A stretch of DNA of 64,000 bases. It comes from Microbacterium sulfonylureivorans (lineage in GTDB: Bacteria > Actinomycetota > Actinomycetes > Actinomycetales > Microbacteriaceae). The translations under genes and the position numbers were made by a program. The stretch is from assembly GCF_003999995.1 (NCBI RefSeq), contig NZ_RJAD01000003.1:248001-312000 (forward strand), in the 5' to 3' direction. Position 1 is the stretch's first letter; the number at the start of each line of letters is the position of its first letter. Positions 8,987 to 63,686 of this stretch are shown in pieces. Under the pieces are notes generated by a model, which ran no database searches, was not told the DNA's origin, and was given only the letters and a program-made list of their open reading frames with translations.

Positions 8987-8992
8987 CTGTGG

Positions 8993-9068
8993 TGGTGGAC
9001 CTGAGGGGAATCGAACCCCTGACCTCCTCGATGCGAACGAGGCGCGCTACCAACTGCGCTACAGGCCC
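8993..9068 (-). tRNA. tRNA-Ala (anticodon CGC), CCA encoded
   Basis: The minus strand folds as a full cloverleaf: acceptor GGGCCTG with CAGGTCC, D-stem GCGC, anticodon stem CCTCG with CGAGG around loop TTCGCAT, and T-arm AGGGG-TTCGATT-CCCCT. The third acceptor pair is G-T, the G3-U70 identity element of alanine tRNAs. The 3' CCA is encoded. Confidence 0.95.
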
Positions 9069-9157
9069 GTGAACCTCCGTTAGATTATCACGCTCCACGG
9101 ACCGGCTCGAACCGGCGCCGGGCGCTGGGACCGGCTCCGGCGGGAGAGGATGGGAGC

Positions 9158-30908: not shown

Positions 30909-30979
30909 GACGACGGCTGGCGATCCGAAGGTGATCGCAACCCGACGATCCGCGCTGTTGATTTGATTTGGAGAGCGCC

Positions 30980-32050: not shown

Positions 32051-32099
32051 GATAGTGGAGTCGGCCACTTCGAGCACTTCTTCAGAGACGTAGGGCGCA

Positions 32100-33551
32100 T
32101 TGCACGACGAAATTCTTGTCCCTGGTGTGGAGCTGCTCGAGTCTATGCGCTCTGTCGGCTACTCGTTCGACGCGGCAGTGGCCGACATCGTCGACAACAG
32201 CATCGCTGCCGGCGCGCGGAAGATTCAAATCGTCGCGGACTCAATCGACGCCAGCTACATCGCGTTTCTCGACGATGGCGACGGGATGACCAGCGACAAA
32301 GCTCGCGAGGCTCTAAAGCTCGCCGGAACCAGCAGAGTCGAACGAACCACGACCGATCTCGGGCGATTCGGCCTCGGACTCAAGACGGCGTCGCTGTCTC
32401 AATGCCGTCGACTCAGCGTCGTGACAGTGCGGGACGGAGTCAGAAGCGCTCTGCAGTGGGACATCGATCATGTCCGTCAGACCGGGAGCTGGTCTATCCG
32501 TGTGCTTGACGATCAGGATCTAGCCGTCATACCTCAAGCCGATCGCCTCAGCGTTGACGAGAACGGGACGCTGGTCGTCTGGCAGGCCCTCGACTATCTC
32601 CTCGCCGGCGCGGGGGATCCGGCGCTTGAGATTTCCGAGCGGCTCCAGCATCTTCGCCATCACCTAGGACTCGTCTTCCAGCGGTTCCTTGAAGGAAGAG
32701 ACTCGGTACGCATCGAGGTGAACGGCGTGGTGGTTGCACCAGTCGACCCATTCCTGGAGGGCAACTCGAAGACCCAGGCCGGGCCCAGGGAAACTGTCGT
32801 CATTGACGGGCACACGGTTGTGGTGGACCCGTTCACCCTGCCGCATCCTTCCGCTCTGAGCTCCCGTGACCGAAAGCGCAGCGATTTGGGCCCGAGCATG
32901 AGGGACCACCAGGGCTTTTACGTGTACCGCAACAAGCGCCTCATCAGTCACGGAGGCTGGTTCGGGCTATCTAAGCTCGACGAACTCACTAAGCAGTCGA
33001 GGGTAAGGGTAGAGATACCGCCAGAGCTCGATAGTCAGTGGCAGCTCGACATAAAGAAGTCCCGCGTTGAACCCCCACAGGCTTTCCGCAGCCGGTTCCG
33101 TCAGATCATCGAGCACGTCACAGGCGGGAGCAAGAGACTGCATCGATTCCGTGGGCGCGCTACCAGCACACCGCACGCCGTGTATCTCTGGCAGGCGATC
33201 GAAGAACGCGGCGGTTACCGATACGCGATCAATCGCGAACATCCAATGATCGCGGGGCTCCAGACACAGTTACCGCCTGAAAAACGCCGGCTGCTTGAGC
33301 AGACCCTCGACGACCTCGCGACCTACTTCCCGGCGCCCGACCTCTATGTGCGAATGGCAGATAGCCAGCCACGAATCGAGATCCAGTTCGCCGAGGCCGA
33401 ACTGCGCGAGAGACTGCGCGCGATTAGGGACGCTGGAGGAGCACTCGCCGACCCGGTCGCCCTCGTGCCAGCGCTCCGCAGAGTCGAGCCATTCAACAAC
33501 GTGGAGGATCTGCAGTCACTCGTGGCTGAGGTCTGGGAGGAGAACAGATGA
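32100..33551 (+). CDS. MORC/GHKL-type ATPase of a restriction-like system
   Basis: The first 180 residues form a GHKL ATPase domain: ADIVDNSIAAGA (N box, Asp32-Asn33), FLDDGDGM (58-63) and LGRFGLGLKTASL (88-99). The rest contains an S5-like region with FYVYRNKRLI and a helical tail. Iyer, Abhiman and Aravind (2008) described MutL/MORC-like ATPases in operons with cytosine methylases, Z1 and nucleases, which is exactly this context. It likely acts as an ATP-driven clamp. Start is TTG 32100. Its stop overlaps the next ATG. Confidence 0.85.
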   Translation: MHDEILVPGVELLESMRSVGYSFDAAVADIVDNSIAAGARKIQIVADSIDASYIAFLDDGDGMTSDKAREALKLAGTSRVERTTTDLGRFGLGLKTASLSQCRRLSVVTVRDGVRSALQWDIDHVRQTGSWSIRVLDDQDLAVIPQADRLSVDENGTLVVWQALDYLLAGAGDPALEISERLQHLRHHLGLVFQRFLEGRDSVRIEVNGVVVAPVDPFLEGNSKTQAGPRETVVIDGHTVVVDPFTLPHPSALSSRDRKRSDLGPSMRDHQGFYVYRNKRLISHGGWFGLSKLDELTKQSRVRVEIPPELDSQWQLDIKKSRVEPPQAFRSRFRQIIEHVTGGSKRLHRFRGRATSTPHAVYLWQAIEERGGYRYAINREHPMIAGLQTQLPPEKRRLLEQTLDDLATYFPAPDLYVRMADSQPRIEIQFAEAELRERLRAIRDAGGALADPVALVPALRRVEPFNNVEDLQSLVAEVWEENR

Positions 33552-36316: not shown

Positions 36317-37267
36317 ATGGATGCGCGCATCGCAGAAGTGCTAACCAAGCAGAGCCTCCAGTTGCTTCCCATCGCCCACCCGGTGCTTACCGTGTACGCG
36401 CAGAACGTGGATGGCCGCCCAGCGATCGTTGTTGACGTACAAGGCACGGTCGACCGATACATCGCAGGGTCTAAGGGCGTCGCGATTGTCGTCGATGGTT
36501 CGGGCGACGACCAGACGTATGTGCGATTTGAGTCAGTAGCGTCCGGACGGACCCCGATGTTCGAGGCATTGATCGATTCCCTGCTCGAGTCGACGCTCGA
36601 TGCGAAGGATCCGGCAACGGCACTCGACGTCATGGTGGACACGTTCGACGAGTTCAAAGCAATGCTGGCGAGCGACCACGGGCAACTCAGCGAGTCCTCG
36701 GTTCGAGGCCTGTTCGCAGAGCTGGTGCTCCTTCGCGACCTCCGCGACGCCGGGTTTGACCCAGCCACCGCACTGGCCGCCTGGCATGGGCCTTACCGGG
36801 CCGCGAAAGACTTCGTCCTCCCGGACGAGAAATGTGTCGAAGTGAAGTCGATCCGACGCCAGAATCACAGATTGCAGATCTCAAACATCGATCAGCTAGA
36901 CCCGCGCGGCGAGGATCTTCGACTTGCGGTTCTGGAGCTAGACCGCCGCGTGGACGGCGAGGGGACCTCACTTGAGTCGCTAATAAACGAGCTAGAGGTG
37001 TGGGTCAGCGTAGATCCGCAGGCGAAGGGCTTCTTCGCTCAAGCGCTTGCGGCCGTCGGGATTGACTTGTCGGACCCCTATTACCGCCAGTGGCGCTTCG
37101 ATATCGGCTCGTGGCATTGGTACGCCATCCTCGAAGACTTCCCCCGTGTACGGGCCGCATTCGTTCCCCCGCCGATAACACGCGTCCGCTACGCGATCGA
37201 CATCGATCAGTGCCAGCAGTTCGCGACCGTGCCGTTCTGGACACCTGACACCAGCATTGAGGACTAG
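36317..37267 (+). CDS. PD-(D/E)XK nuclease-like protein
   Basis: 316 residues. FAELVLLRDL supplies the helix acid (Glu135), and AKDFVLPDEKCVEVKSI gives Asp165 and the E-V-K triad at 175-177, the minimal nuclease core. It starts immediately after the Z1 stop. In related systems this family is named the PD-(D/E)XK motif protein, and is the likely cutting subunit. No DNA-recognition domain is evident, so specificity would come from partner proteins. Confidence 0.8.
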   Translation: MDARIAEVLTKQSLQLLPIAHPVLTVYAQNVDGRPAIVVDVQGTVDRYIAGSKGVAIVVDGSGDDQTYVRFESVASGRTPMFEALIDSLLESTLDAKDPATALDVMVDTFDEFKAMLASDHGQLSESSVRGLFAELVLLRDLRDAGFDPATALAAWHGPYRAAKDFVLPDEKCVEVKSIRRQNHRLQISNIDQLDPRGEDLRLAVLELDRRVDGEGTSLESLINELEVWVSVDPQAKGFFAQALAAVGIDLSDPYYRQWRFDIGSWHWYAILEDFPRVRAAFVPPPITRVRYAIDIDQCQQFATVPFWTPDTSIED

Positions 37268-37272
37268 CGATC

Positions 37273-39360
37273 TTGTCAGATTTCTATGAAGAGTTCTCGA
37301 ACGCGATCACCCTGCGGGCGCATGGGAATGCGGGCTTCCAGCTCACGGCCTTCGGCGAGGAAGTCGCGGACCGACTGGAGGAGGCCGAGGTAGCTCTCGA
37401 TCTCACGGTCATCGCACTTCAGTGCACGGGCCGCAATCGCCGCAAGCTCCGTTTGCTCGGCTATGCCGAGGACGCCGCGGACAGCTCGCTGATCGTTCTC
37501 TGTTCAGCTTTCTATGGCGCGCGGGGTAACACCCTGACGAAGACGGAGGCGGAGGCGACATTCGCGTCCGCACGTGCTTTCATCGAGCAGTCGGTTGATG
37601 GCCACCTCATCGACGCACTCGAGATCAGTTCTGCCGAAGCGGAGCACGCCCGGTATTTTCGGGAGCTCCTCTCCCGTGAGCACCGGAATTCTCTCAATCG
37701 GGTAGAGCGATTCAAGTTCATCCTTGCCACCGATGGAGTCGTGAGCGAGCGCCTGCGGTCGATTCAGAGCGACGAGGTTTGCGGTCGCCCGACCTCCTAC
37801 TCCATCTGGGATCTCCGTCGCTTCGAGGAGCTCGCAGGATCGGAGTCAGGACAGGACGAGTTCGAGGTGGATCTGACGAAGTGGCTCCCCGATGGGCTGC
37901 CCTGCCTCGTCGGCTCGGAGAGCGATTCACGCGCGAAGTCCTACCTTGCCGTCCTGCCCGGCCAGCTGCTGGCCGACGTGTATGCCGAGTATGGCAGCCA
38001 GCTGCTCGAGTCGAACGTGCGCACCTTCTTGAGCGCGCGAGGAAAGGTCAATCGCGGGATCCAAGGGACTCTCTCGAATCAGCCGGACATGTTTCTGGCC
38101 TATAACAACGGTCTCACGACGACAGCCACTGGTGTCGACCTGGTCGACGGTCCTGGGGGTACACGGATACGTAGCCTTCATAACTGGCAGATCGTGAATG
38201 GCGGGCAGACGACCGCGTCGCTGGCTCATTTCATGCGCGGGGCCGGACGCAAAGTTGACGATGTGTACGTAGCGATGAAGCTCGTGACCGTCGAACCCGA
38301 GACCGCCTCCGAGATGGTCGCGTCGATCTCGCGATTTGCCAACAGCCAGAATGCTGTCAGTGAGGCCGACCTCTTTTCGAATAGCCCCTTCCACATTCGT
38401 CTCGAGCAGATCAGTCGACGGATCTTGGCGCCCGCGCAGGAAGGTCAGGTCTTCCAAACGAAGTGGTTCTACGAGCGTGCGCGCGGTCAATGGGAGAACC
38501 AACGAAATGCCGGAACGCCCGCCGAGGTGAAGCGGTTTGAATCGGAGTTTCCGAAGAAGCAGCGGCTCACGAAGACGGACTGGGCGAAGTTCGCATTCAG
38601 CTGGTCGCAAAGACCGCACGAGGTCAGCAAGGGTGCGCAGAGTAATTTCATGTCGTATGCGAAAGTGGCATCGGAGTTGTGGGAGAGGGATCCGGATCAG
38701 GTCGGCGACGCGTATTTTCGCATCGGTGTCGGCAAAGCGATCATGTACAGCGATGTTCGCGAGGCGGTACTCGAGTCTGACTGGTACGAGACTGGGTATC
38801 TTGCGAACATCGTCACGTATGCGATGTCCCGGTTCGCGTTTGAGCTGTCGATTCGATTCCCCGACCAGAAGTACGACTTTGAATCTGTATGGCGTCGACA
38901 GAGTCTTTCGGCAGCGAGTCGGGAGGCCTTGACCGAGGTCGCGCATCAGATGCAGCTTGTCTTGACTGCGGACGACAGGCCCCAAGCCAACGTCACCCAG
39001 TGGGCGAAGCAGTCGGCAGCGTGGGAGTCCGCGAAGAAGTTTCGCATTGAGCTTCCGGACAATGTCAAGCAGGATCTGCTGGGAGCGGCGGAGGAGCGCA
39101 GTCGCCTGACTGATGCGAAGCGCGAACGACAGATCGACTCGGGCTTTGAGGCCCTCTCGCGGGTGATAGCAGTGAAGCAGGCGACCTGGGAGCTGGTGGT
39201 GGCCGAGGGGACACGGGCCGGCGTCCTCAGCCCGACCGACGCGGCGCTGGTGCAGCTCGTGATGAAGAAGGCGATGCCGACCGATCGGCAGGCTCTCCGC
39301 CTAGCGCGCATCCTTGATCGGTGCTCGCAAGAGGGCCTGATACCGGACTCCGCCTACTGA
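37273..39360 (+). CDS. AIPR family protein (abortive-infection phage resistance type)
   Basis: 695 residues. The conserved AIPR core is VRTFLSARGKVNRGIQGTL ... MFLAYNNGLTTTATGV ... LHNWQIVNGGQTTASL, found in phage-resistance proteins such as lactococcal AbiA-linked AIPR. A long helical C-terminal half follows. The biochemical activity is unknown. It begins at TTG 37273, 5 bp after the nuclease gene, with GAGGA about 10 nt upstream. Its place in the methylase operon suggests a role in restricting invading DNA. Confidence 0.85.
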   Translation: MSDFYEEFSNAITLRAHGNAGFQLTAFGEEVADRLEEAEVALDLTVIALQCTGRNRRKLRLLGYAEDAADSSLIVLCSAFYGARGNTLTKTEAEATFASARAFIEQSVDGHLIDALEISSAEAEHARYFRELLSREHRNSLNRVERFKFILATDGVVSERLRSIQSDEVCGRPTSYSIWDLRRFEELAGSESGQDEFEVDLTKWLPDGLPCLVGSESDSRAKSYLAVLPGQLLADVYAEYGSQLLESNVRTFLSARGKVNRGIQGTLSNQPDMFLAYNNGLTTTATGVDLVDGPGGTRIRSLHNWQIVNGGQTTASLAHFMRGAGRKVDDVYVAMKLVTVEPETASEMVASISRFANSQNAVSEADLFSNSPFHIRLEQISRRILAPAQEGQVFQTKWFYERARGQWENQRNAGTPAEVKRFESEFPKKQRLTKTDWAKFAFSWSQRPHEVSKGAQSNFMSYAKVASELWERDPDQVGDAYFRIGVGKAIMYSDVREAVLESDWYETGYLANIVTYAMSRFAFELSIRFPDQKYDFESVWRRQSLSAASREALTEVAHQMQLVLTADDRPQANVTQWAKQSAAWESAKKFRIELPDNVKQDLLGAAEERSRLTDAKRERQIDSGFEALSRVIAVKQATWELVVAEGTRAGVLSPTDAALVQLVMKKAMPTDRQALRLARILDRCSQEGLIPDSAY

Positions 39361-40412: not shown

Positions 40413-43154
40413 ATGCGGGGCGGTCTCGAGCGTTGGAAGAGGGGCGTCGAATCACACGGGGTCCGACAGGCGATGTCGTACGCGCTCGAGGGCACCTGCG
40501 ACGCACACCTGCGACACACCACCGGCACCGGAGCAGTCGAGGCATACAGCGCAGCATCCCATTCGGCTGTCTCGCGGTTCATCGTCGACAACGGCGTCAT
40601 CACGTCCGACGAGCTCACAGCGGGCGGTCTTCGTGTCTGGCTCACCGGACACGACCCAGTCACGGGGGAAGAGCGCGGCCATCAGCGGCTGAGCCCCGAC
40701 GCCGACCTACTGCTCGACGGCACGCTCAACCACCCGAAGTCATACAGCATCGCCGCACTGCTGCATCCCGAACTTGCCGCCGAGTTCGAAGCGCTCCAGG
40801 ACCGTCTGCGTGATCGGATCCTGCTCACCTGGCAGACCGAGCTCAATGCGCGGCGCGGGCACGGCGGCCTCATCCGCGAGGAGATCACGCGCATCGAAGT
40901 CGTCGAGCTGCAGCATCGCCGCTCGCGTGCGCTCGACCCGCACATCCACCGCCACCTCTGGCTGAACATCAAGGTGCGCGGCGCGGATGGCAAGTGGTCG
41001 AACGTCGACTCGCGCGTCGCGATGAAACTGCACACCGTCGTCAACGCCGAGGGCGACCTCGCCGCCCGCACTGATCCGGCGTGGGTTGCCGCGCTCGCGC
41101 GCCACGGATACACGCTCGATGACGCGGGAGAGGTCGCCGAACTCGCCGGCGCCGTCCGTCCGCTCTCGCGTCGGTCGGCGCAGATCGAGGCCAACCGCGC
41201 GCACATGATCGCGGAGTGGTCGACGGCGCACGCGGGTTCGGCGCCGAGCGTCGAGGTGCTGCAGCAGATCGACCGCCGTGCGTGGGCGGTGTCACGGCCG
41301 AACAAGCCGGCCGATCTCGACGAGCTGTCGTGGGAGGCGAAAGTCCGAGGCGAGATCGCGGCGATCGATGCCAGCCTGGTCGCCGAGCGAGCACCCGTCG
41401 ACGTCAACGCGACAGACATCGACTCCCTTGATCTCGATCTCCTCGCCGGGATGGCTATCGTCGACGCCGACGAACGGTCCACGTCATCCGGTGGACGGTT
41501 CAGTGCCTTCGACATCCGGGCCGGCGCAACGCGCGCGCTCTCCCGCGCGGGCATCGTCGCGCAACGTGCCCGGCTCGATGGCGTCATCGACGAGATCGCG
41601 GGACGCGCTGCAACCGCCGTCGTCGGGCTTATTGCAGAACACGCTCCCGCGCACGTCAAGGCGTTCATGGCGACCGAGACGATGCGCGCGAGGGTGCGCC
41701 TCGCAGGTCGCCTCGACGCACTCGCCAATCCCGGACGATCCCTCCTACCCGCTGAGCTGCATCGACATGCGTCGAACGAGGATGTGTCGATTCTGGATGC
41801 TTCGCAGAACGTTGCGGCGTGCGCCATCGCAGGAACGGGTGGGCTCGTGACGGTGACCGGTCCCGCAGGCGCGGGGAAGACCACGATGCTGCGTGCCGCA
41901 TTCCACGCCCTCACCGCGCAGCGACGACGGATGTTGGTGGTCGCTCCAACGCGCAAGGCGGCCTCGGTTGCGGCTCAAGAGATCGGGACCTCGGCATCCA
42001 GCATCCATGCATTGCTCTTCGATCATGGCTATCGGTGGAACACGGACGAAGCCGGCGCGAAGGTATGGGCACGACTTGCCTGCGGCGATACCGACCCGAC
42101 GGTAGGTGCTAAGTACAGCGGTCCTGCCAACTGGGTGCTATGTGCCGGCGACCGGATCGTCGTCGACGAAGCCGGCATGGTCGACCTTCACACCGCGAAC
42201 GCGCTCACCGAACTCGCGCTCGAACTGCGGGTCGGTCTCGCGTTTGTCGGCGACGCGCATCAGGCGTTGCCTGTCGGGCACGCCGGGGCGATGGCATCCG
42301 CGATCCGGCACGCCAACGCATCCGTCGAGCTGGACACCGTGCACCGGTTTCGCGACCCCGAGTACGCGGCACTCACGCTGCGACTGCGCAACGCGGGCGA
42401 TCGGGAGCACGCGCTTGAGGTCGCCGGCGAGTTGGCAGAGTGCGGTCACCTCGAGCGGGTCGATCATCACGACACGGCGCGCGAGCGGATGATCGACGCC
42501 TACTTTGACTGGCACGCGCGCGGCAAGCGGGTGACGCTCGTGTCGGGGACCAACGCGGAAGCGGATGCCATCAACGACGCCATCCAGCAGCGCCGAGTTG
42601 ATCAGGGCGAGCTCGATTCGAGTCTCGTCGCGTGGGGGATGCAGGAGCAGCGGATCCTCGTTGGCGACACGGTGCAGACCCGCCGCAATGATCGGCTCAC
42701 CGGCGTCGAGAACCGCGCACAGTGGATCGTGCGTGGCATCTACGACGACTTCATGTCGCTCGTTTCCATCTGCGACAGCGGTGAGGCGCGTCACATTCCC
42801 CTCGAGTATGCGCGCGAACACCTGCAGCTCGCCTACGCGTCGACCGTGCACGGGGTCCAGGGCGACACAGCCGACGCGTCGGTCGTCGGGCCGGATGTGG
42901 ATGCCGCGGGGCTCTATGTCGGCCTCACCCGAGGCCGGATCCACAATGTCGCCATCGTCGTGGCGCGGACGGATGGCGTGGCTCGGGAGCGAATTGCCGA
43001 GTCGATGCAACGCGGCATGCCTGAGGTGACGATTCAGGATGCTGTGCGTGCGGCCAAGGCAGAGATGCGCCGTGCCGCGCGGGACCGAGAGGCGGAGATG
43101 TGGAGGGCGCCGGGGGGCGGGCCGGCGAGCCCTGGGCGTGGGATGGGGTTGTAG
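40413..43154 (+). CDS. MobF-type relaxase-helicase (TraA/TrwC-like)
   Basis: 913 residues. The N-terminal relaxase half has the MobF metal-binding motif HRRSRALDPHIHRHLWLNI. The C-terminal half is an SF1 RecD-like helicase with Walker A GPAGAGKTTML, Walker B RIVVDEAGMVDL, and STVHGVQGDTADASVV near motif VI. It would nick and unwind the element for transfer. The N-terminus is shorter than in TrwC, and the catalytic tyrosine may be Tyr23 in MSYALEG. TAGCCT lies 6 nt before the ATG. No coupling protein or secretion genes are seen nearby. Confidence 0.85.
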   Translation: MRGGLERWKRGVESHGVRQAMSYALEGTCDAHLRHTTGTGAVEAYSAASHSAVSRFIVDNGVITSDELTAGGLRVWLTGHDPVTGEERGHQRLSPDADLLLDGTLNHPKSYSIAALLHPELAAEFEALQDRLRDRILLTWQTELNARRGHGGLIREEITRIEVVELQHRRSRALDPHIHRHLWLNIKVRGADGKWSNVDSRVAMKLHTVVNAEGDLAARTDPAWVAALARHGYTLDDAGEVAELAGAVRPLSRRSAQIEANRAHMIAEWSTAHAGSAPSVEVLQQIDRRAWAVSRPNKPADLDELSWEAKVRGEIAAIDASLVAERAPVDVNATDIDSLDLDLLAGMAIVDADERSTSSGGRFSAFDIRAGATRALSRAGIVAQRARLDGVIDEIAGRAATAVVGLIAEHAPAHVKAFMATETMRARVRLAGRLDALANPGRSLLPAELHRHASNEDVSILDASQNVAACAIAGTGGLVTVTGPAGAGKTTMLRAAFHALTAQRRRMLVVAPTRKAASVAAQEIGTSASSIHALLFDHGYRWNTDEAGAKVWARLACGDTDPTVGAKYSGPANWVLCAGDRIVVDEAGMVDLHTANALTELALELRVGLAFVGDAHQALPVGHAGAMASAIRHANASVELDTVHRFRDPEYAALTLRLRNAGDREHALEVAGELAECGHLERVDHHDTARERMIDAYFDWHARGKRVTLVSGTNAEADAINDAIQQRRVDQGELDSSLVAWGMQEQRILVGDTVQTRRNDRLTGVENRAQWIVRGIYDDFMSLVSICDSGEARHIPLEYAREHLQLAYASTVHGVQGDTADASVVGPDVDAAGLYVGLTRGRIHNVAIVVARTDGVARERIAESMQRGMPEVTIQDAVRAAKAEMRRAARDREAEMWRAPGGGPASPGRGMGL

Positions 43155-55064: not shown

Positions 55065-57227
55065 TCAGTTCGGTGTGAGTCCAAGAATGCGGTCGACAAC
55101 CTCGCCTATGCGGTCTAGTCGCCCCGGCACAGCTGCCAGCCACAGTGGTCGAGCAGTCGCGCGATCCTCGTCTGTCGCCTTCAGGTATCGCTCGCAGATC
55201 ATTAGTAAAGACTCCAGCTGCTCTTCGAGCTCACCATGGTCGTTCGTGTTTCTGCCGATTACCCTGGCCTCACGTAGTGCTTCAATCAACTGTCCGATAC
55301 CGAAGACCGGAACGGGGTCGCCGTCCGCGGGGGCTTTCTCGGTGGGAGCCCAATCGGACAGAGCAACAGACCATGCCTGCTGCGCTTTCTTGGCGTCACC
55401 AACTCCGTAGAGCGGCATGATCAATTCCAAGAGTCGGATTGGCTTGTCGGCTCGGCGGTCGAGATCTGGAATCTGCACGCGAGGTGTGCCGCGCCCAAAG
55501 GCTGGGTGGGCGGTGATTGTTGTAATCGATCCCGCATCGTAATGCTTGCCTCGCGCGACGAGGTCATCGATGAGCCGGGCTTGTAAGTGTGCGAGCTCGC
55601 CAACATTTATCGGCCACCAGTGCGGCATCTCTTGCTTCCGGAAGTATGCGGTGACATGCACGAGCCCTGCGCGAACCTGGAACTGGACGAGAACGAACGC
55701 GGGAAATAGGCGCTTCTCGCCCGAGAAGTCCGCGGACGGCTCGACAAGAATGGCGACGGCGCGGCTGGTGTCCGCGTCGTCCGCGAGCGCGCGCGCCGCC
55801 TCCTTGAGCTGATTAGTATGACCAGTTTGCAAATCGGGGTCGATCGATCCGTACGCGGTAATTCTCTGCCCATGGTTGAAGCTGGCTCCGCGGCCAGCCC
55901 GAGGCGACTGCCACCACCCAATTGTCCGATCGAACCAGGCCTGCGGGTCCGATTCTGTTGATGGCAAATCTGGGTAGAGCGGAGGAATACTGAGGGCGCT
56001 CTTGCCGTCAATGACAACGCACACCAGCGGAAGGGCAGCGGCGTTGTGCGGAGTCGGGAGTGAAACGATCCTCTCGTGCACGTCTTGGGCAGTCGCGCCC
56101 ACTATGCGTCCGCGCTCCGCGTCGTCGTTTAGGAACCACTTCGCGGTTGGGAGAACTCCGATGTCTATCGTGCCCCCCGGGCCCACGGGCTTGATATCGA
56201 CGATGGTCACGCCAGCCGTCCGAGGTGCCACGGGCGCGATCGTCAGAAGTCGTGCGACAGGCGAGCCTTGGTTGTCGACTTGCCCCGCGCTAGGGGCGCT
56301 TACGACCAGCATGCGTTGCTCGGCCTCGACCGATGTGAGGCCGCGGTGCGACAATGTGAAGGGCCGAGAGACGTGCTTATGACCGTGCAACGCGATGTCT
56401 ATCCGCTGCATGGCAAGCCAGTCGAGTGTCTCGCCGAGGTTCAGGATCGACTCGTATGGCTTGATCTCGGGAACCGTACCCACCGGCATGAGCTGATGGT
56501 GCATCACGGCGATCCTCAATGGCGCCCCGAGCGCTGTCGATGCGGATTCAAGCGCCTGGGCAGCATGCCGGAGTTGGTGTTGCCCTAGCCAAGCAATATC
56601 GACCTCTCCTCGTTCCGCCCAGGCTCTGAGCAGTTCTGTGACAGCTGGGTTTCCTGCATTCTGCAATTGGTCGAAGCGCGACTCGAGAGCGGTTTCGATG
56701 GGTAGGTCCGTCTGACATAGATCCGCCGAGTTGATGGCGACGATGATGTATGACTCATCCACTGCCGTCAGCGTTGTGGTCTGCGCAGCAGTTCCATCCG
56801 TCTGTTCTAGTGGATCGATGCCTTCGAGCAGCGGCGTGATGTAGCCGTGCTCGCGAAGCTGAACAAAGTCCTCATAGCGCTCGGGAGATGATGGCGGCGC
56901 TCCGCGGAGCACGTCGTGGTTCCCTGGGACCACAACGACCCTCTCGGGCGGGACTACGTCAGGGACCAGCGGCGCGAGGATCTCCGGCAGGCGAACGAAA
57001 CCCTTCGGATCATCGCGGTCAACGATGTCGCCGGAGATGACGATGCAATCCAGCCCGAGTTCATCCTCAATGACGGCACGAGCCAGCGCCTCGAGCGTCG
57101 AGCGCATGCGGTCCCCTGCCGACGCCTGGGCCGAGGCTGGGACAGCCTTCTGTTTGTTGTCGGCAATCAGTTCGTCTTCGCGATCACCGTGGAGGTGAAG
57201 GTCGGAGAGATGCAGGATGCGAGCCAC
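55065..57227 (-). CDS. Metallophosphoesterase fused to a thymidylate-synthase-like domain
   Basis: 720 residues. Residues 1-300 are a calcineurin-like phosphoesterase with all metal motifs: LSDLHLHG (Asp9, His11), SGDIVD (Asp67), PGNHD (102-105), MHHQ (242) and LHGHKH (281-285). A linker region follows. Residues about 425-590 resemble thymidylate synthase: FPAFVLVQFQV, AYFRKQEMPHWWPINVGELAHLQ and ITTITAHPAFG line up with the PCH-QF, YQRS-D, P-N and DAH segments. The catalytic cysteine position is Ala510, so this TS unit cannot use normal chemistry. Start is GTG 57227, with CATGAT 6 nt upstream. It is divergent from the TS-Nmad1 gene. Confidence 0.65.
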   Translation of the reverse strand: MARILHLSDLHLHGDREDELIADNKQKAVPASAQASAGDRMRSTLEALARAVIEDELGLDCIVISGDIVDRDDPKGFVRLPEILAPLVPDVVPPERVVVVPGNHDVLRGAPPSSPERYEDFVQLREHGYITPLLEGIDPLEQTDGTAAQTTTLTAVDESYIIVAINSADLCQTDLPIETALESRFDQLQNAGNPAVTELLRAWAERGEVDIAWLGQHQLRHAAQALESASTALGAPLRIAVMHHQLMPVGTVPEIKPYESILNLGETLDWLAMQRIDIALHGHKHVSRPFTLSHRGLTSVEAEQRMLVVSAPSAGQVDNQGSPVARLLTIAPVAPRTAGVTIVDIKPVGPGGTIDIGVLPTAKWFLNDDAERGRIVGATAQDVHERIVSLPTPHNAAALPLVCVVIDGKSALSIPPLYPDLPSTESDPQAWFDRTIGWWQSPRAGRGASFNHGQRITAYGSIDPDLQTGHTNQLKEAARALADDADTSRAVAILVEPSADFSGEKRLFPAFVLVQFQVRAGLVHVTAYFRKQEMPHWWPINVGELAHLQARLIDDLVARGKHYDAGSITTITAHPAFGRGTPRVQIPDLDRRADKPIRLLELIMPLYGVGDAKKAQQAWSVALSDWAPTEKAPADGDPVPVFGIGQLIEALREARVIGRNTNDHGELEEQLESLLMICERYLKATDEDRATARPLWLAAVPGRLDRIGEVVDRILGLTPN

Positions 57228-57363
57228 GTCCCCATCATGGCCGGTTGGCAACGATTCCAGCTGTCCGGTCGGGGGCGAGTTTGTATTGCCGCGGGGCGCA
57301 ACCGGCCGTCCCCCGGATCGCCACCTACACTTCATGTGTGGCTGAGCAGGCGGCGGATGCGCC

Positions 57364-58869
57364 ATGAGTTCGCACCGCAATCAAGCGACCGCGTTCGTTG
57401 ACTTGCTGGAGCGCGTGATGCGACGTGGAGAACGAACGACGGTTCGGGGCTACGAGACGCGCGAGCTACGTCATGTGGGGGTCCAAATTGAGCGGCCGCT
57501 TGAGAGGTATGTTCCGGTACCGTCGCGGCGTGGCGATGTATTCGCAAGCATCGCCGAGACAGTGTGGGTTCTGGCGGGCCGTAACGATGTCGACTTCCTC
57601 AGCGAGTACTTGCCTCGGGCAGGAGAGTTCTCGGACGACGGGCGCACCTGGCGTGCCGGCTACGGGCCGCGCCTTCGCAACTGGAATGGAATTGACCAGC
57701 TCGCGGAGGTCGTCGCGATCCTGTCGGAGGAGTCAACATCGCGCCGCGGGTCGATTGTCCTCTTTGATCCCGCCGAGGACTTTCAAGTCAGCAAGGACAT
57801 TCCGTGCACGAACTGGCTGAATGTGTCGATACGTCATGGCCGCCTCGACATCGATGTCGCTGTGCGCAGCAACGACCTGTTCTGGGGGTTTTCCGGCATC
57901 AACGTCTTCGAGTGGAGCGTGATGCAGGAAATGCTTGCGTTCTGGTTGGATTCGGACGTTGGAGGTCTGGCCTTCTGGATCTCATCGCTGCATGTGTACG
58001 AGAGACATTACGCCCGTGCTCTCGAGATCATGCGCGGGGCACAGCCGATCGCACTCGGCGTACGAACACCCGCACAACGGAACTTCGCCACGCCGTTCTC
58101 CGAGCTAGAGGGCACGTTCTCGGATTGGTTTGCCATTGAAGGCATGATACGGGCCGGCGGGATTCCTGCAGCCGAGATTCGAGCATTCAAGGATCCGCTG
58201 CTGCGCGACTTCCTGTGGATGCTCGCCGCTCGGAAGGAGCAGCAACGAGTCGACGCTGATGCCGCCCAGGCGTGGCTCGACGAAATAACTGATCCGGAGC
58301 TGGTGAGGGCGGCACGCGAGTTCTTTGAACGTAGACCGGGCGGTGGCGCCGTGCATCGAGCGTCTGCGGAGGGCGAGATCCTGAAGCTCGAAATAGCTGA
58401 GTTGCATCGCGCCAAGACTTCAACCTACGGCGATAGCTGGAAGCGACACGGAGAGGTCGGATCCATACTCCCGAACATCGATCGCAAGATCGACCGGCTA
58501 CGGAATTTCGATCGCATCGCACCAGAGGACGCTGAGTCCGCGTCCGACACCGCTGTTGATCTGTTCGTGTATGCCCTGAAGTACCGGACATTTCTCGCCG
58601 AGCAACAGGGCCTCGGCCTGCCACACGGCGTGTCCAGATGGAGCGACGGCGTGGAGGGCTTCGAGTACTTGCTGAATGAGTACGATTCGTTCGGACCGCG
58701 GGAGTCTTCAGATCGAGCGGTTTCGGACGTGATGGCGGCGGGAGCGGCTGTACGGACCGCTGTCACGAAGCAGCTACCTATCGCAGATCGGGTTCGACTT
58801 GCCGAGGATCTCGCCGCGAGCGCGTGGGACCTGGTCGTCGTCCTGCTCACTAGGAGATCGTCGACATGA
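57364..58869 (+). CDS. Thymidylate-synthase-like enzyme fused to an Nmad1-like domain
   Basis: 501 residues. Residues 1-290 have a complete TS active site: Cys148 in DIPCTNW, RSND at 168-171, Asn180 in GFSGINVFEW, and His210/Tyr212 in SSLHVYERHY. Asn at 180 fits a uracil rather than cytosine base. Residues about 370-460 (STYGDSWKRHGEVGSILPNIDRKIDRL ... SDTAVDLFVYALKY) resemble nucleotide-modification-associated domain 1 (DUF1599). It probably makes dTMP or 5-hydroxymethyl-dUMP from dUMP. The stop overlaps the next ATG. Codons are less GC-biased than in the sugar operon. Confidence 0.72.
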   Translation: MSSHRNQATAFVDLLERVMRRGERTTVRGYETRELRHVGVQIERPLERYVPVPSRRGDVFASIAETVWVLAGRNDVDFLSEYLPRAGEFSDDGRTWRAGYGPRLRNWNGIDQLAEVVAILSEESTSRRGSIVLFDPAEDFQVSKDIPCTNWLNVSIRHGRLDIDVAVRSNDLFWGFSGINVFEWSVMQEMLAFWLDSDVGGLAFWISSLHVYERHYARALEIMRGAQPIALGVRTPAQRNFATPFSELEGTFSDWFAIEGMIRAGGIPAAEIRAFKDPLLRDFLWMLAARKEQQRVDADAAQAWLDEITDPELVRAAREFFERRPGGGAVHRASAEGEILKLEIAELHRAKTSTYGDSWKRHGEVGSILPNIDRKIDRLRNFDRIAPEDAESASDTAVDLFVYALKYRTFLAEQQGLGLPHGVSRWSDGVEGFEYLLNEYDSFGPRESSDRAVSDVMAAGAAVRTAVTKQLPIADRVRLAEDLAASAWDLVVVLLTRRSST

Positions 58870-59855
58870 ATCCGCAAACCGCTCCCGCCACGCGGGAGGC
58901 CGTCCACGACATTTTTTGGCGCTTCGCAGCGGAGCGACAGTCGATATTCGAACGACGGTGGCGTGGCGAATCGGCCCCCTGGACCGAGGATACTATTCTC
59001 GCGCGATTCAAGTTCTGCAATGTGTACCGCGCGTCTGACCGGGTGAGCCAGTTTCTGATTCGAGAAGTGTGTTACCAGCGCGAACAGCCTGCAGCAGACG
59101 ATCTCGCGTTCCAAATAGTCGCGATGCGGACCTTCAGCCGGATCGAATCCTGGAATTCATTATCCGAACGACTCGGCCACGCGCCCTTGCTGCGAGACCT
59201 GGCCAGCGGCGCTCTCGAGGACGCCCTGACTGACATGCGCGACGCCGGAGAGCGCCTGTATACGGGCGCATTTATTCTGTGCGCGACTGATGCATATGGG
59301 CGAAAGATCAAGCATCTCAATCACGTCGAACTCTTCAAGCATATGTTCCTGGACGATGATTTGGCGTCCCGCATATCCGAGGCATCAAGCCTTGAGGAGG
59401 TGTACCTCGCTCTGCATGCATTCCCCTTGATGGGTGACTTCATGTCGTATCAGATCGCAATCGACCTCAACTACTCGCCTTTAATCGATTTCTCTGAGAA
59501 TGATTTCACGGTGCCAGGTCCAGGAGCGGTTCGCGGTCTACGCAAACTGTTCACTGACTTCGGCGACTACTCTCCCTCCGGCCTCATCAATTGGCTAGTG
59601 GAGCGCCAGCACGAAGAGTTCGCGGCGCGCAATCTGCGGTTCGAGGGGCTGTGGGGGCGATCGCTGCACGCAATCGATGTTCAGAATCTGTTGTGCGAAA
59701 CGGACAAGTACTGCCGGGAAGCGCTACCGGAACTCGCAAGCTCGCGGACTCGTATCAAGTCGAAATTCGAGCCCACACCCACGCCAATCGACTACTTCTT
59801 TCCGCCAAAGTGGGGTCTCGAGACCGCGACGGCTCGGGCACTGGTGTCCGCGTAG
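58866..59855 (+). CDS. 5-hmdU DNA kinase helical-domain-like protein
   Basis: 329 residues, all helical by inspection. FKFCNVYRASDRVSQFLIREV (48-68) and LNHVELFKHMF, FPLMGDFMSYQIAIDLNYS and SENDFTVPGPGAVRGL match the helical domain described with 5-hydroxymethyl-dU DNA kinases and the glutamyl/putrescinyl-thymine pyrophosphorylases (Iyer and colleagues 2013, base hypermodification). No P-loop is present. It overlaps the TS-Nmad1 gene by 4 bp, so the two likely act in one pathway on modified thymine or its nucleotide. Confidence 0.5.
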   Translation: MNPQTAPATREAVHDIFWRFAAERQSIFERRWRGESAPWTEDTILARFKFCNVYRASDRVSQFLIREVCYQREQPAADDLAFQIVAMRTFSRIESWNSLSERLGHAPLLRDLASGALEDALTDMRDAGERLYTGAFILCATDAYGRKIKHLNHVELFKHMFLDDDLASRISEASSLEEVYLALHAFPLMGDFMSYQIAIDLNYSPLIDFSENDFTVPGPGAVRGLRKLFTDFGDYSPSGLINWLVERQHEEFAARNLRFEGLWGRSLHAIDVQNLLCETDKYCREALPELASSRTRIKSKFEPTPTPIDYFFPPKWGLETATARALVSA

Positions 59856-59864
59856 GCCCCGCGA

Positions 59865-59900
59865 GGCCCGCGCAGCGGCCCCCGCGGGGCCCGCGCAGCG
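59865..59900. repeat. Two 13-bp direct repeats and hairpin after the kinase-like gene
   Basis: GGCCCGCGCAGCG occurs at 59865-59877 and 59888-59900. Between them GGCCCC-CGC-GGGGCC forms a 6-bp hairpin. The unit may end transcription of the two-gene TS-Nmad1 operon. Confidence 0.4.
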
Positions 59901-59930
59901 CCGGATCTGCATGATTGATTCGCCATCTGC

Positions 59931-59977
59931 TTGAAAATCGAGCACCACAAGAGTAGTCTGTGAGGAAATCGATCACA
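59931..59977 (+). promoter_or_regulatory. Promoter and dyad for the carrier-protein operon
   Basis: TTGAAA (59931-59936), a 17-nt spacer and TAGTCT (59954-59959) form a good promoter. TGTGA-N9-TCACA (59959-59977) is an inverted repeat over the expected transcription start, a natural operator for the XRE repressor encoded in the operon. GGGGG lies 7 nt before the ATG. Confidence 0.6.
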
Positions 59978-59996
59978 TACCCCTGGGGGCGATCAA

Positions 59997-60284
59997 ATGG
60001 ACCTGTACGATCCGGCTGCTGTACGCGAGCATCTAGTGAGGATGATCGCTGAAGTCGAGGGCGTCGACGCGGATGAGGTGTACGAGGCGATCGCCGCTGC
60101 CGGCGAAGACGGCGACTTCCAGCTTCGAAGCAAGATCGCGGAGTCAGTGATCGCTGGTCTGGAGGAGGTGTTCGGCGTCACGCTCCCCGCGCCGGCTGAC
60201 CTCCCGCGGGAAGAGTTCGCAACCGTCAACGCGCTCCTGGAACTCATCGTTCGCGAGCTAAATCAAGCTTCAGGAGCCGCGTAG
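59997..60284 (+). CDS. Acyl/aminoacyl carrier protein
   Basis: 95 residues, acidic, with the carrier-protein helix pattern: VREHLVRMIAEVEGVDADEVYEAI, then LRSKIAESVIAGLEEVFGV and TVNALLELIVREL. Ser45 in LRSK lines up with the phosphopantetheine serine of DSL-type motifs. The normal Asp before it is Arg. A phosphopantetheinyl transferase is encoded two genes later, which supports a true carrier. It is not the fatty-acid ACP, since no fatty-acid genes are near. First gene of the operon with its own promoter. Confidence 0.7.
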   Translation: MDLYDPAAVREHLVRMIAEVEGVDADEVYEAIAAAGEDGDFQLRSKIAESVIAGLEEVFGVTLPAPADLPREEFATVNALLELIVRELNQASGAA

Positions 60285-61174
60285 TGGCGACCGTCGTGTG
60301 GGGCTCCGACATCGGGGATGCATGGTTGAACGCATACGAGCAACTGTTGCCGAGAGGAGAAGTGCACAATCTCACGGTCAACATCGCGAGTCCCCTCGAG
60401 GAGGACCTCGGAGTGCGCCGCGTGATTGAGCGCAAGCTGCTGGACTTCGAGACGGCCGGCGGAAAAGACCACCGCAACCCTCAAAGCATGGATACTGTCG
60501 CGAGCACAATCTTTCCCGTCGCCCTCTATCGGCCGGGACCGGGGGCGGCGGAGCGACTCTTCCGCAATGTAGCGCGTGCAGAGAGCCTACGTGCGCACAG
60601 TCGTCGCAAGGGGTGGGGCACCTATATTGGCCGCCTAACGAACTATCCGTCGCCAGCCGGCGCCCGGGTGAATCAACTCGAGCTCGCGATCGATCGATTG
60701 TCCGCGCGCGACAAAGCCTGGTCTGACCTGTACGAACTCCCAATCGGCGCTCCCGGGGAGCCTTACGCTCCTGACTCCGCCGGAGTCAGCTTGGGTACGC
60801 ACGCCGACATGGCGTACGACGCCCGCACGATCGGGAACCCTTGCCTTGCGCACATAAGCCTGACAAGGCTCAACGGCGTTGTGCACATGGTTGCCCTCTA
60901 TCGGCGACACCATTACGTAGCTCGTGCGTACGGCAACTTCCTCGGGCTCGGGCGCCTGTTGAACTTTCTCGCCGCCGAGTCTGGTCTAGAGCCGGGGGAA
61001 CTTACGGTCGTAACGGGGCACGCCCTCGCGGAGACATCTAAGCGACACGCGATCTATGGCGAAGCACGGCAGGCAGCCCGTGAGGTGGTACCTATTGAAG
61101 TCGGCGCCCGTCCGCTCGGCGCCTCTGTCGACGATCTGGAGCTCCCCAGAGGAGGCGGCGGTGGTGGTCGCTGA
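60284..61174 (+). CDS. Divergent thymidylate-synthase-like protein
   Basis: 296 residues. IGNPCLAHISLTRLNGVVHMVALYRRHHYV and FLGLGRLLNFLAAESGLEPGELTVVTGHA follow the TS core, with Cys187 at the nucleophile position and His246 near the DAH motif. The asparagine that reads the base is replaced (GLGRLLN), so the substrate probably differs from dUMP. It shares one base with the carrier-protein gene (TAGTG). The location between a carrier protein and its transferase suggests the TS-like enzyme acts on, or with, the carried group. Confidence 0.6.
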   Translation: MATVVWGSDIGDAWLNAYEQLLPRGEVHNLTVNIASPLEEDLGVRRVIERKLLDFETAGGKDHRNPQSMDTVASTIFPVALYRPGPGAAERLFRNVARAESLRAHSRRKGWGTYIGRLTNYPSPAGARVNQLELAIDRLSARDKAWSDLYELPIGAPGEPYAPDSAGVSLGTHADMAYDARTIGNPCLAHISLTRLNGVVHMVALYRRHHYVARAYGNFLGLGRLLNFLAAESGLEPGELTVVTGHALAETSKRHAIYGEARQAAREVVPIEVGARPLGASVDDLELPRGGGGGGR

Positions 61175-61619
61175 CTTCGCCCAACGGGTTGGCGCGATGC
61201 TGCAGGGCGTGCGCGGCCCGATGACAAATGGCTTGCGGCTTGGCATCGATGTCGCTGCGGTGGACTACTTTGCTCACCTGATGGAGCGGCCGGCGGGACA
61301 GAGATTCCTACTGACCCGCTTCACCGAGGTGGAACGGACCTACATCACTAGCGATCCGGCGAGGATCGCGGTTCGGTGGGCGGCCAAGGAAGCTGTCTCG
61401 AAGGCGATCGGAACCGGATTTCGTGGCATTCGACCGATCGACATTCAAATCAACAGAACTCCGGAAGGCCAGCCTTTGGTCGAAAGGGGGACCAGCGAGG
61501 ACTGGCCACTCTCGGCACACCAGTGGGACTGGTCGATAACGATGAGCGAAGACGACGGCGCGGCAGTGGCGATCGCCTTGGCAATCCCGAAGGGGGAAGC
61601 GGATGACTTCGGAGAATGA
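61161..61619 (+). CDS. AcpS-type 4'-phosphopantetheinyl transferase
   Basis: 152 residues. LRLGIDVAAVDYF gives the Mg-binding aspartate (Asp30), FTEVERTYI the second (Glu58), and VRWAAKEAVSKAIG the conserved AcpS motif; QINRTPEGQPLV completes the fold. It should load phosphopantetheine on Ser45 of the neighbouring carrier. I choose GTG 61161 because AGAGGAGG lies 5 nt upstream; an ATG at 61056 would overlap the TS-like gene by over 100 bp. It overlaps that gene by 14 bp. Confidence 0.82.
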   Translation: MVVADFAQRVGAMLQGVRGPMTNGLRLGIDVAAVDYFAHLMERPAGQRFLLTRFTEVERTYITSDPARIAVRWAAKEAVSKAIGTGFRGIRPIDIQINRTPEGQPLVERGTSEDWPLSAHQWDWSITMSEDDGAAVAIALAIPKGEADDFGE

Positions 61620-61977
61620 CCTCGAGTCCATAAGCGACGATGCCCGCAAACTCGCCGAGAACATCAGGCAGGAGCGAGCCTACGCCGGTCTCAGTCAAGA
61701 CCAAGTTGCGCGCGTGTTAGGAATCACGCGGGCCGCTGTGAGCGCGCTTGAAACCGGACGTCGGCGCGTGTCAGGTGTCGAGCTGAAGCACCTCGCCAAA
61801 CTGTTCGGGACTAGCGCAGATCGGTTGATGGGCGCAGAGGCTCCGCGGGACGCAACGGCTGATGCGCTCTTCAGGACCACGCGGGAGTTGAGCAATGAGG
61901 ATCGTGAGCAGGTACTCAGATTTGCGGAGTTTCTTCGGCATGCGGGCGCCGCCCCCGACGTCGGCAAGTCGGGCTAG
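61603..61977 (+). CDS. XRE family transcriptional regulator
   Basis: 124 residues. A lambda-repressor-like helix-turn-helix lies at residues 13-70: LAENIRQERAYAGLSQDQVARVLGITRAAVSALETGRRRV. The rest is an acidic helical tail. It overlaps the transferase gene by 17 bp and is followed by an ImmA/IrrE peptidase 8 bp later, the standard repressor-antirepressor pairing in which the peptidase cleaves the repressor. It may bind the dyad at 59959-59977. Confidence 0.88.
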   Translation: MTSENDLESISDDARKLAENIRQERAYAGLSQDQVARVLGITRAAVSALETGRRRVSGVELKHLAKLFGTSADRLMGAEAPRDATADALFRTTRELSNEDREQVLRFAEFLRHAGAAPDVGKSG

Positions 61978-61985
61978 GTACCAAC

Positions 61986-63014
61986 GTGGCGTCTTTCGCT
62001 GAATCGAGCCGAGCGCGATCGCGCGCAAGCATGGAAGCGGCTCGACTGCACGCCCGCCTCGGCACGGACATGTCCATACCAATTGATGTCTTCGAGGTGG
62101 TCCGTGAGCTTGGCGTATGGCTCTCGGCGCGTGACCTCTCTTCGACGCTCTTCGGGTTCTACCTCTCCGATGGCGGCACATTCGGGATCTGCCTCAATGA
62201 TCGGCATCCGGAGCCCCTCCAACGTCTGACGTGCGCGCACGAGCTAGGGCACCACATGCTCGGCCATCAGTCAGCGCTGGACCTCGAACGGCACATTAGT
62301 GGCGGAGGCGACACCTCACTCGCTGAGGTGGAGGCACAGGCATTTGCATCGGCGTTTCTGATGCCGCCCGGCCTCGTGAATCGGAAAATGAGAACGCTTG
62401 ACCTAAACGGGCGATCCGGCCTCACGGATCTCGACCTCTATCGTCTCGCACGCACGATGGACACGAGCTTTTCAGCAACCGTGTGGCGGCTAGTGGACCT
62501 GGAAATATTGACCCCGGCGGCTGCGAAGGAGCTGGCGCGAAAAGGGCCCTCAAAGGCCAAGGCCATTCTCATTCAGCCGTTCGCTGCTCCAGGGCGCGGC
62601 GAAGTGGTGGAGGTGGATGCCGAGCGCCAAGACCTGGCGCTGTGCCGCGTCGGTGACCACGTAATGGTGGACCTCCCCAATCACGGGGATTCGGGCTACA
62701 TCTGGGTCGCGGACGGTCAGCTCCCGGGGTCGTTCCCGCCGGGGCTGGTCTGGGATGGAGCGGGTACCCTGGCACAAGCTGCGCAACCACTTGTCGCCCG
62801 GCACGCCCCCGAATCGGGTGGCGGAAGCCGGCTGCACTTTCAGTTCGAGGCTCCAGGGCCGGCGGAGGTATCGATGCAGCTGATACGCCCGTGGGAGGCA
62901 TCGCCCAGACCCGCGGCTGAGCTTCCGCTTAATGTAGTGGTCCAACCCGAGCATCAAGTCGTCGGTATGGATGCGGCCCAAATCGGTGCCTACGCGCGAC
63001 GGGTGGGTAGCTGA
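61986..63014 (+). CDS. ImmA/IrrE metallopeptidase fused to chagasin-like protease inhibitor
   Basis: 342 residues. The N-terminal ImmA/IrrE zinc peptidase has HELGHH (85-90) and Glu117 in EAQAFASAFLMP as third ligand. Residues about 221-320 resemble chagasin (inhibitor family I42): VGDHVMVDL, NHGDSGYIW (232-240) for the NPTTG loop, a Gly/Ser-rich loop, and RPWE (301-304), the three inhibitory loops. The next gene is a papain-like peptidase, the natural target of chagasins. Start is GTG 61986. I infer a sensor-inhibitor that controls both the XRE repressor and the peptidase. Confidence 0.75.
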   Translation: MASFAESSRARSRASMEAARLHARLGTDMSIPIDVFEVVRELGVWLSARDLSSTLFGFYLSDGGTFGICLNDRHPEPLQRLTCAHELGHHMLGHQSALDLERHISGGGDTSLAEVEAQAFASAFLMPPGLVNRKMRTLDLNGRSGLTDLDLYRLARTMDTSFSATVWRLVDLEILTPAAAKELARKGPSKAKAILIQPFAAPGRGEVVEVDAERQDLALCRVGDHVMVDLPNHGDSGYIWVADGQLPGSFPPGLVWDGAGTLAQAAQPLVARHAPESGGGSRLHFQFEAPGPAEVSMQLIRPWEASPRPAAELPLNVVVQPEHQVVGMDAAQIGAYARRVGS

Positions 63015-63686
63015 GTGCTCAGATGGGTGTTCGATGGGCGATCGGATAGCCGCCCGGTGGATGACCAAGGGATGCGGTCCATTTGTCTCGCCGTATCAGC
63101 CACGTTCGTTCACGATCTCGCACGCGACGATCTCATGAGTGCCGAGTACCTTCATTGGGATTCCGAACGGTACGGTGGTCGCGGACATCCTCGGTCGGTG
63201 GCGAAGTCCCTAGCGACTACCGGCCAGCCGCCCTCGGCACAATGGCCGATGGACGCGGCGATCGACGACACCGACTCGGCGTACGCACCGTCGAGCCTAG
63301 TGATCGGTCCGTTTCGCAGGGCGGTGACGGAGACCTACTTCGACCTCGATCTAGCGATCGATAAGGTCGCGGGCGGAACGCCCGTCGTGATGTGCCTCCT
63401 CACCTCCCCGGAGTTCTACGATCCCGACGTCTCAGTCATAACGACGTGGACCGGCCCAATTGCTGGGCACGCTGTCGTGGCGATCGGTCTCGCGATATAC
63501 GACGGGCCGCCGATCCCGGGCGGACCCGAACCAGGTGCCAGATTCCTGTGCCTACGCAATAGCTGGGGCGCGGACTGGGGCAGGGCTGGTCATGTCTTGA
63601 TGAGCGAAGTAGTCGCGCGTCAGTGCACCCAAGTAGCCCTCGATATCGCCCCGCTCGATCCTGATGCAAGATCCATTCGTGCTTAG
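63015..63686 (+). CDS. Papain-like (C1A) cysteine peptidase
   Basis: 223 residues. DDQGMRSICLAVSATF holds Gln18 (oxyanion) and the nucleophile Cys24; GPIAGHAVVAIGLAIYD carries His152; CLRNSWGADWGRAGHVLM carries Asn182. All catalytic residues are therefore present. No signal peptide or prodomain, so it acts inside the cell, unlike most papain-type enzymes. GTG start directly follows the stop of the chagasin-fusion gene without a gap. A free active protease would be toxic, fitting the inhibitor encoded before it. Confidence 0.78.
   Translation: MLRWVFDGRSDSRPVDDQGMRSICLAVSATFVHDLARDDLMSAEYLHWDSERYGGRGHPRSVAKSLATTGQPPSAQWPMDAAIDDTDSAYAPSSLVIGPFRRAVTETYFDLDLAIDKVAGGTPVVMCLLTSPEFYDPDVSVITTWTGPIAGHAVVAIGLAIYDGPPIPGGPEPGARFLCLRNSWGADWGRAGHVLMSEVVARQCTQVALDIAPLDPDARSIRA

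Follow-up and report, generated by a model that had tools for sequence, protein, structure and literature searches.

Why should an acyl carrier protein (ACP) be encoded among proteins with thymidylate synthase (TS) folds, and what would such a gene set do? The question is raised by nine genes within positions 55065–63686 of a 64,000-nt stretch of Microbacterium sulfonylureivorans DNA (GCF_003999995.1, contig NZ_RJAD01000003.1, forward strand 248,001–312,000), here called the window and numbered with position 1 at its first letter. The original prediction had placed a hypermodification system at 55065–61619. Three TS-fold proteins beside a protein of family PF18723 (HMUDK_hel), an ACP and an extra AcpS-type phosphopantetheinyl transferase were confirmed there. 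The system extends beyond that span and also includes genes for an XRE regulator, an ImmA/IrrE-chagasin protein and a papain-like peptidase (61603–63686). The original prediction had missed this regulator-protease switch, the partner genes for MazG_C and a glycosylase, and the conflict setting; taken together, these make an inducible system of the defence type a likelier role than housekeeping hypermodification. With a confidence that stops just short of even, we read the locus as an inducible conflict system, probably anti-phage or anti-plasmid, that would act on pyrimidine nucleotides or bases with a carrier protein of its own.

The carrier-protein operon comprises, in order, genes for the ACP (59997), a TS-fold protein termed TS3 (60284), the AcpS-type transferase (61056), XRE (61603), ImmA/IrrE-chagasin (61986) and the papain-like peptidase (63015). 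Upstream lies a plus-strand unit of a TS gene (57364) and the PF18723 gene (58866), divergent from a minus-strand gene whose product joins a metallophosphoesterase to a TS-fold domain (MPE-TS, 55065). We used TS3 as bait in other sequences; the window is excluded from all locus counts. TS3 is rare and patchy: six matches including its own were obtained in 396 genomes of the phylum and eight, again including its own, in 394 genomes of the class, with one match common to the phylum set, and in the order only its own genome carried it (1/396). Among 72,556 plasmids there were 20 matching records, 16 of which were examined; H8, H12, H14 and H15 were left out, the last three agreeing with H13 in both match span and identity. 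Viral contigs contributed two loci.

We obtained 25 strong loci (L029–L031, L036–L047, L053–L057, L082–L086), i.e., 8 genomes, 15 plasmids and 2 viral contigs from Actinomycetota, Pseudomonadota, Cyanobacteriota and one haloarchaeon; several are related and hence not independent. A core of ACP, XRE, ImmA (M78) and TS3 was found in 25 of 25, so that the gene set does co-occur in distant genomes, as had been predicted. Two of the ACPs are weak, that of L086 (6e-3) and that of L037, which was found by eye (Pfam PP-binding 0.046); in L086, moreover, M78 is in two pieces and TS3 lies near the contig end. The 15 plasmid loci were part of the training set of the search models, and the other 10 loci served as the test outside training; ACPs of plasmid loci were marked by position, and in L038, L039, L044 and L057 also by the annotation 'acyl carrier protein'. 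The core genes are tightly packed, with an ACP–XRE gap of at most 2 nt in 17/17 annotated plasmid loci and 52 of 61 core gaps of at most 10 nt. The window order ACP-TS3-AcpS-XRE-M78-C1 recurs in L086, where C1 denotes the papain-like peptidase, and ACP-TS3-AcpS-XRE-M78 in L001 and L017. Four weak or partial TS3 matches (L032, L033, L048, L087) lacked the core. Four loci found with a C1 query were left out of the 25: L051 and L052 without the core, and L049 and L050, in which the core is present but TS3 is split between two frames. In the latter pair, both Rhizobium ruizarguesonis plasmids, the frames overlap (8612–9473 and 8599–9400, respectively), owing to decay, sequencing error or frameshift. 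From this sequence comparison we are nearly certain that ACP-XRE-M78-TS3 is a real functional unit. The earlier idea of pyrimidine chemistry with a carrier was likewise a sound inference, because genes for the carrier and a TS-fold protein stand together in a single operon in different phyla.

Partner genes around the core appear to alternate. Exactly one of PF18723 (14 loci) or a uracil-DNA glycosylase (UDG; 9 loci) was found in 23/25 loci, both in none, and neither in L037 and L086; the UDG proteins tested score just under the Pfam family cut-off. Further partners were MazG_C (22 loci), C1 (12, including all 9 UDG loci), AcpS (6), dCTP deaminase (4) and MPE-TS (2), and in a separate set of 25 loci found through PF18723, eight had the TS3 core. 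In L037 (5742–13456, a viral contig) the core adjoins a DUF1643 gene as well as portal and capsid genes of the lambda type.

The argument for inducibility comes from the switch. The XRE regulator (61603–61977, plus; HTH_3 7.2e-12) and the ImmA/IrrE (M78) metallopeptidase (61986–63014, plus; M78 2e-11) resemble the CBASS regulator pair CapH/CapP in PADLOC models (capH 1.2e-13, capP 4.8e-19) and also the pair ImmR/ImmA. Unlike in CapH/CapP, the ImmA protein here often bears a C-terminal chagasin (I42) inhibitor domain (2.1e-6 in the window) and stands beside a papain-like peptidase, and no CBASS gene was noticed. This C1 peptidase (63015–63686, plus; PF00112 4.5e-6) has the residues Gln18-Cys24-His152-Asn182, and the papain Gln-Cys-His-Asn set is invariant in 8/8 aligned C1 peptidases. 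The chagasin motif GYxW was present in M78 at 13 of 15 loci with C1 versus 1 of 16 without; among five further loci it was present in L086, which has C1, and absent from L082–L085, which lack C1. Pfam I42 at E ≤0.1 gave 7/7 tested loci with C1 and 0/4 tested without, L001 being a clear exception. A chagasin domain on M78 next to its likely target C1 suggests, at the level of sequence, a two-protease relay. Upstream of the operon lies an intergenic stretch (59856–59996, plus), the presumed promoter/operator; an operator search upstream of ACP genes gave scattered palindromes in some loci and none common to the loci. On a small Priestia plasmid (L052, 7899–9093, core absent) a papain-like peptidase is followed by a free-standing chagasin-type inhibitor.

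For TS3 (60284–61174, plus) the TS fold comes from a predicted structure model, which belongs to the TS superfamily and has MilA and AfhB as nearest solved structures; its sequence profile gave no significant match against the PDB. We mapped equivalences by eye on aligned ThyA, using the E. coli numbering. A global hhalign alignment with ThyA was poor, and the Cys-to-Asn segment alone was gap-free, again by eye. TS3 keeps Cys187 (codon 60842–60844), Tyr114 and Asn218; 53/53 sequences and 20/20 diverse members have the Cys together with the equivalents of Tyr94 and Asn177. The R166 equivalent is kept in 51/53 and changed in L022, L025, L044 and L053 among the diverse members. The G173 position is Arg in 51 and Lys in 2 of the 53. 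Positions 210, 248 and 250, matching D169 and the sugar contacts H207 and Y209 of a functional TS, vary among the 53, and no Arg pair was found at the likely positions of the phosphate contacts R126/R127, where the alignment is insecure. TS3 shares the fold of the MilA/AfhB pyrimidine hydroxylases but is altered at folate/sugar-contact positions. The host genome carries its own ThyA.

The 59997 protein (59997–60284, plus) is, by its sequence, a real acyl-carrier-type protein: its attachment Ser45 (codon 60129–60131, RSK motif) has a counterpart in 31/31 aligned rows, and its profile matches solved ACPs in the PDB at 5.5e-8, aminoacyl carrier proteins among them. The AcpS-type transferase (61056–61619, plus; PF01648 5e-13 over residues 62–172) possibly starts further in, near 61221, and the host genome encodes another AcpS elsewhere. 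Unusual Ser motifs, with no Asp before or Lys after, occurred in 6/11 loci with their own transferase versus 1/25 without, namely L037, with no Asp in its motif and no transferase on its contig (Fisher p 0.0014; p 0.004 with the near-twins L001/L017 merged; the test was picked after the data had been seen, on loci related to each other). We read this pattern as co-evolution of carrier and transferase.

The TS at 57364–58869 (plus; PF00303 4.7e-23) has the TS fold and keeps the canonical motifs, i.e., Cys, R166, D169, N177, SRR and HxY. Its nearest solved structure is MilA (4.5e-28), and it shares about 32% identity with phage SPO1-type deoxyuridylate hydroxymethyltransferases. It looks like a dUMP/CMP hydroxymethylase with a predicted hydroxymethyl product. 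Its C-terminal domain (~58354–58869) had been labelled Nmad1-like, for which Pfam gave no match to a curated Nmad model; in L001, L008, L013, L014, L017 and L023, domains of this type do not form part of a TS or MazG_C gene. The adjoining gene (58866–59855, plus), which shares 4 nt with the TS gene and ends 141 nt before the ACP gene, encodes a protein in which PF18723 (1.2e-93) is the sole family found by Pfam. It had been described as a helical protein like 5-hydroxymethyldeoxyuridine (5-hmdU) kinase: the family assignment stands, the kinase part does not, as a search for the P-loop motif [AG]xxxxGK[ST] found no match in the protein, and we dropped the name '5-hmdU kinase'. A TylF-like methyltransferase gene lies directly upstream of the PF18723 gene in L001 (8692–9699), as confirmed by Pfam, and, as called by clustering, in nine other loci.

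MPE-TS (55065–57227, minus) combines a metallophosphoesterase (residues 1–368) with a TS-fold domain (~368–620), its fold being predicted; the TS folds anticipated for the 55065 and 60284 proteins are hence both supported by prediction. The open reading frame reaches 57380, with GTG at 57227 as the probable start, and the closest relative is from M. invictum (84%). Asp, Asn and His are invariant in the MPE-TS alignment at the positions expected for the phosphoesterase metal ligands. In the TS domain, Ala or Ser replaces the catalytic Cys in 43/43 aligned sequences, which sets it apart from an active TS and from MilA/AfhB; this domain looks like a binding domain. Across the three TS folds, 57364 looks like an ordinary hydroxymethylase, TS3 like a changed enzyme and the MPE-TS domain like a binder, because active-site residues are canonical in the first, altered in the second and Cys-less in the third. 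Within the fetched stretches, MPE-TS occurred in only 2/25 strong loci, plus the window and L050, and it is thus unsupported as an obligatory part of the system. In full length it was found in its own genome alone among 296 genomes of the class, the remaining matches being partial; 5/6 plasmid MPE-TS genes lie beside UDG-MazG_C. Loci L058–L060 have MPE-TS without the ACP core, in 2/3 divergent from a MazG_C-UDG pair, and MPE-TS therefore belongs to a separable module.

How might these parts work together? XRE would hold the operon silent until, upon infection or DNA damage, the ImmA-type protease cuts XRE, as in CapH/CapP and ImmR/ImmA. The chagasin domain would restrain the papain-like peptidase until the ImmA-type protease is spent. 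AcpS would load phosphopantetheine onto the ACP, and the TS or MazG_C unit would supply a pyrimidine of the dUMP or 5-hydroxymethyl-dUMP type. The TS3 Cys may then activate C5 of the pyrimidine, with the partner group coming from the ACP arm instead of folate; the basic Arg/Lys214, in place of TS Gly173, could hold the phosphate of that arm. A glycosylase-type partner would act on the base in DNA, the phosphoesterase, reading the pyrimidine via its Cys-less TS domain, would clear or cut a nucleotide, and poisoned or damaged pyrimidines in the invader or the cell would be the outcome. That the core operon is a conflict system at all we consider rather probable, and that it works by carrier-dependent pyrimidine chemistry nearly as probable as its opposite. 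The most specific version, in which TS3 represents a new TS-fold class with folate swapped for a phosphopantetheine carrier, making a new 5-substituted pyrimidine as weapon or signal under two-protease release, is more doubtful than that, though a serious candidate. If true, a TS fold working with a carrier protein in place of folate would imply a new type of pyrimidine chemistry, with a modified base or messenger yet to be discovered, the XRE/ImmA-chagasin/papain relay would join the ways in which prokaryotes silence dangerous systems, and an immune-type system would employ carrier-protein chemistry. The four genes of this small core are kept in organisms as distant as actinobacteria and a haloarchaeon, and single conserved residues, the ACP Ser and the TS3 Cys, open the idea to direct testing.

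The surroundings of the core point to conflict. Plasmid copies have Shedu, caspase-family and CHAT genes nearby, as counted with no background control, and a SIR2 gene adjoins an MPE-TS/MazG_C/UDG module without core. PF18723 units occur near an Mrr-type endonuclease in L007 and, lacking TS3, together with ThsB_TIR, Nmad2 and SLOG genes in L020. Several of the domains have precedents in DefensePredictor (Science 2026, PMC13092281), in which TS, 5-hydroxymethyluracil-kinase and metallophosphatase domains are newly validated in E. coli MG1655 defence, NMAD and dNMP kinase stand in the legend of the figure showing validated domains, and predicted systems contain aGPT-Pplase, MazG, MazG-C, NMAD and UDG domains. 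The TS and 5-hydroxymethyluracil-kinase-type domains are common ground with our locus; 'acyl carrier' and 'ImmA', however, are missing from the main text of that paper, in which domain sharing within one system is not visible. With the DS9_1 model, MPE-TS gives a match at 1e-25, well below the cut-off of that model, and it shares the SMPDL3A-like fold with DS-8/DS-9, but there the phosphatase is paired with NACHT or a HAD phosphatase (PMC13092281), whereas here it is fused to a Cys-less TS domain. A literature search, with supplements and bioRxiv outside its scope and some lists limited to their top entries, found no paper linking a carrier protein to these genes. Nucleotide-centred defence of the TS or kinase type is already known; were the chemistry of the carrier-protein core demonstrated, that core would be new in kind.

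Several observations weigh against this conflict reading and its mechanism. PADLOC gave no match for TS, PF18723, ACP, TS3, AcpS or C1 and weak matches only for MPE-TS (1.4e-6, 7.6e-4), and we know of no defence assay for the carrier-containing system. Within the fetched stretches, AcpS was not found in 19 of the 25 strong loci and MPE-TS not in 23, and no carrier-loading enzyme, e.g., for adenylation, was noticed in the annotated loci, where no dedicated search was made. An acyl or aminoacyl group on the carrier, part of the original prediction, is hypothetical, as is modified DNA as the product. As for the relay, L001 has I42 (3.8e-12) but yielded no C1 gene, and the GYxW motif is missing from L023 and L029 despite their C1. 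R166 is retained in nearly all TS3 sequences (51/53), and the loss of folate/sugar contacts is read from an alignment that can be trusted only around the Cys–Asn segment. Finally, the phage portal and capsid genes beside L037 and the many plasmid copies also fit a system that serves the element.

Hypermodification of DNA by the system is possible. In its inducible form, an anti-restriction version of the original prediction, a 5-substituted deoxyuridine in plasmid or prophage DNA would evade restriction for the element itself, with the carrier delivering the substituent. The hydroxymethylase-like TS and the PF18723 protein are shared with phage thymine hypermodification, for which we take the SPO1, ViI, M6 and SP-15/PhiW-14 types as comparison. 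Relatives of 58866 occur in 471 of 50,697 phage records, among them those of Salmonella, Pseudomonas and Serratia phages; one relative is annotated as alpha-glutamyl/putrescinyl thymine pyrophosphorylase. Moreover, 11/20 TS3 plasmid records are predicted conjugative, and L037 lies beside phage structural genes. TS3 itself, however, gave 0 matches in the same 50,697 records (single-sequence tblastn, E ≤0.01, which distant copies could escape) and is therefore not a commonly recorded phage hypermodification gene; whole-system membership was dropped for it. ACP, AcpS and the protease switch further distinguish the locus, as does a PF18723 protein without P-loop motif. Of the 11 loci without PF18723, eight have both glycosylase and MazG_C, which, judged by family, would take out bases or nucleotides rather than put them in, and protease-controlled silence is a poor fit to constant self-marking. 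We hence regard inducible self-modification as unlikely, though it is the rival that deserves most attention.

Less probable still is a signalling role, in which TS3, ACP and partners would build or sense a modified pyrimidine second messenger, MPE-TS would degrade it and TIR/SLOG-type effectors would respond in related islands. Comparison of its predicted structure relates the phosphoesterase part to Rv0805 and SMPDL3A, the latter described as a cGAMP phosphodiesterase in PMC13092281. The Cys-less TS domain retains Arg and Asn in 43/43 sequences, and L020 offers ThsB_TIR and SLOG genes with a PF18723 unit. No nucleotidyl cyclase was noticed in the annotated core loci, however, and the tested TIR/SLOG genes belong to a PF18723 locus that lacks TS3.

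A small nucleoside-antibiotic or metabolite pathway, in which the MilA-like hydroxymethylase, carrier and transferase would make a secreted pyrimidine compound, is quite improbable. MilA, the best solved match of 57364, belongs to mildiomycin biosynthesis, and a carrier with its transferase is typical of such pathways. But we noticed neither an exporter nor an adenylation or ketosynthase set in the core, the same protease-regulator cassette is found on plasmids from bacteria as well as a haloarchaeon, and the TylF-like methyltransferase is confirmed in a single locus (L001), with relatives in the nine other PF18723 loci. That the carrier and TS-like genes merely ride, independently of each other, on a genomic island is barely credible: GC is low in the locus stretch (0.617 versus 0.718 in window 1–27000) and the modules (TS or MazG_C with PF18723/UDG, sometimes MPE-TS; ACP-XRE-M78-TS3) also occur apart, but the core in all 25 loci across phyla, with overlapping genes, refutes chance for the core, though not for MPE-TS.

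Apart from the conflict locus, the window carries a cytosine-5 DNA methyltransferase gene followed by MzaB, MzaC, MzaD and MzaE homologues (30968–39360), i.e., an Mza-type defence system. A tRNA-Arg (27467) and a tyrosine integrase gene (27737–28867, minus) lie upstream of it. A TrwC-type relaxase with an AAA helicase domain at 40413–43154 suggests a mobilisable integrated element.

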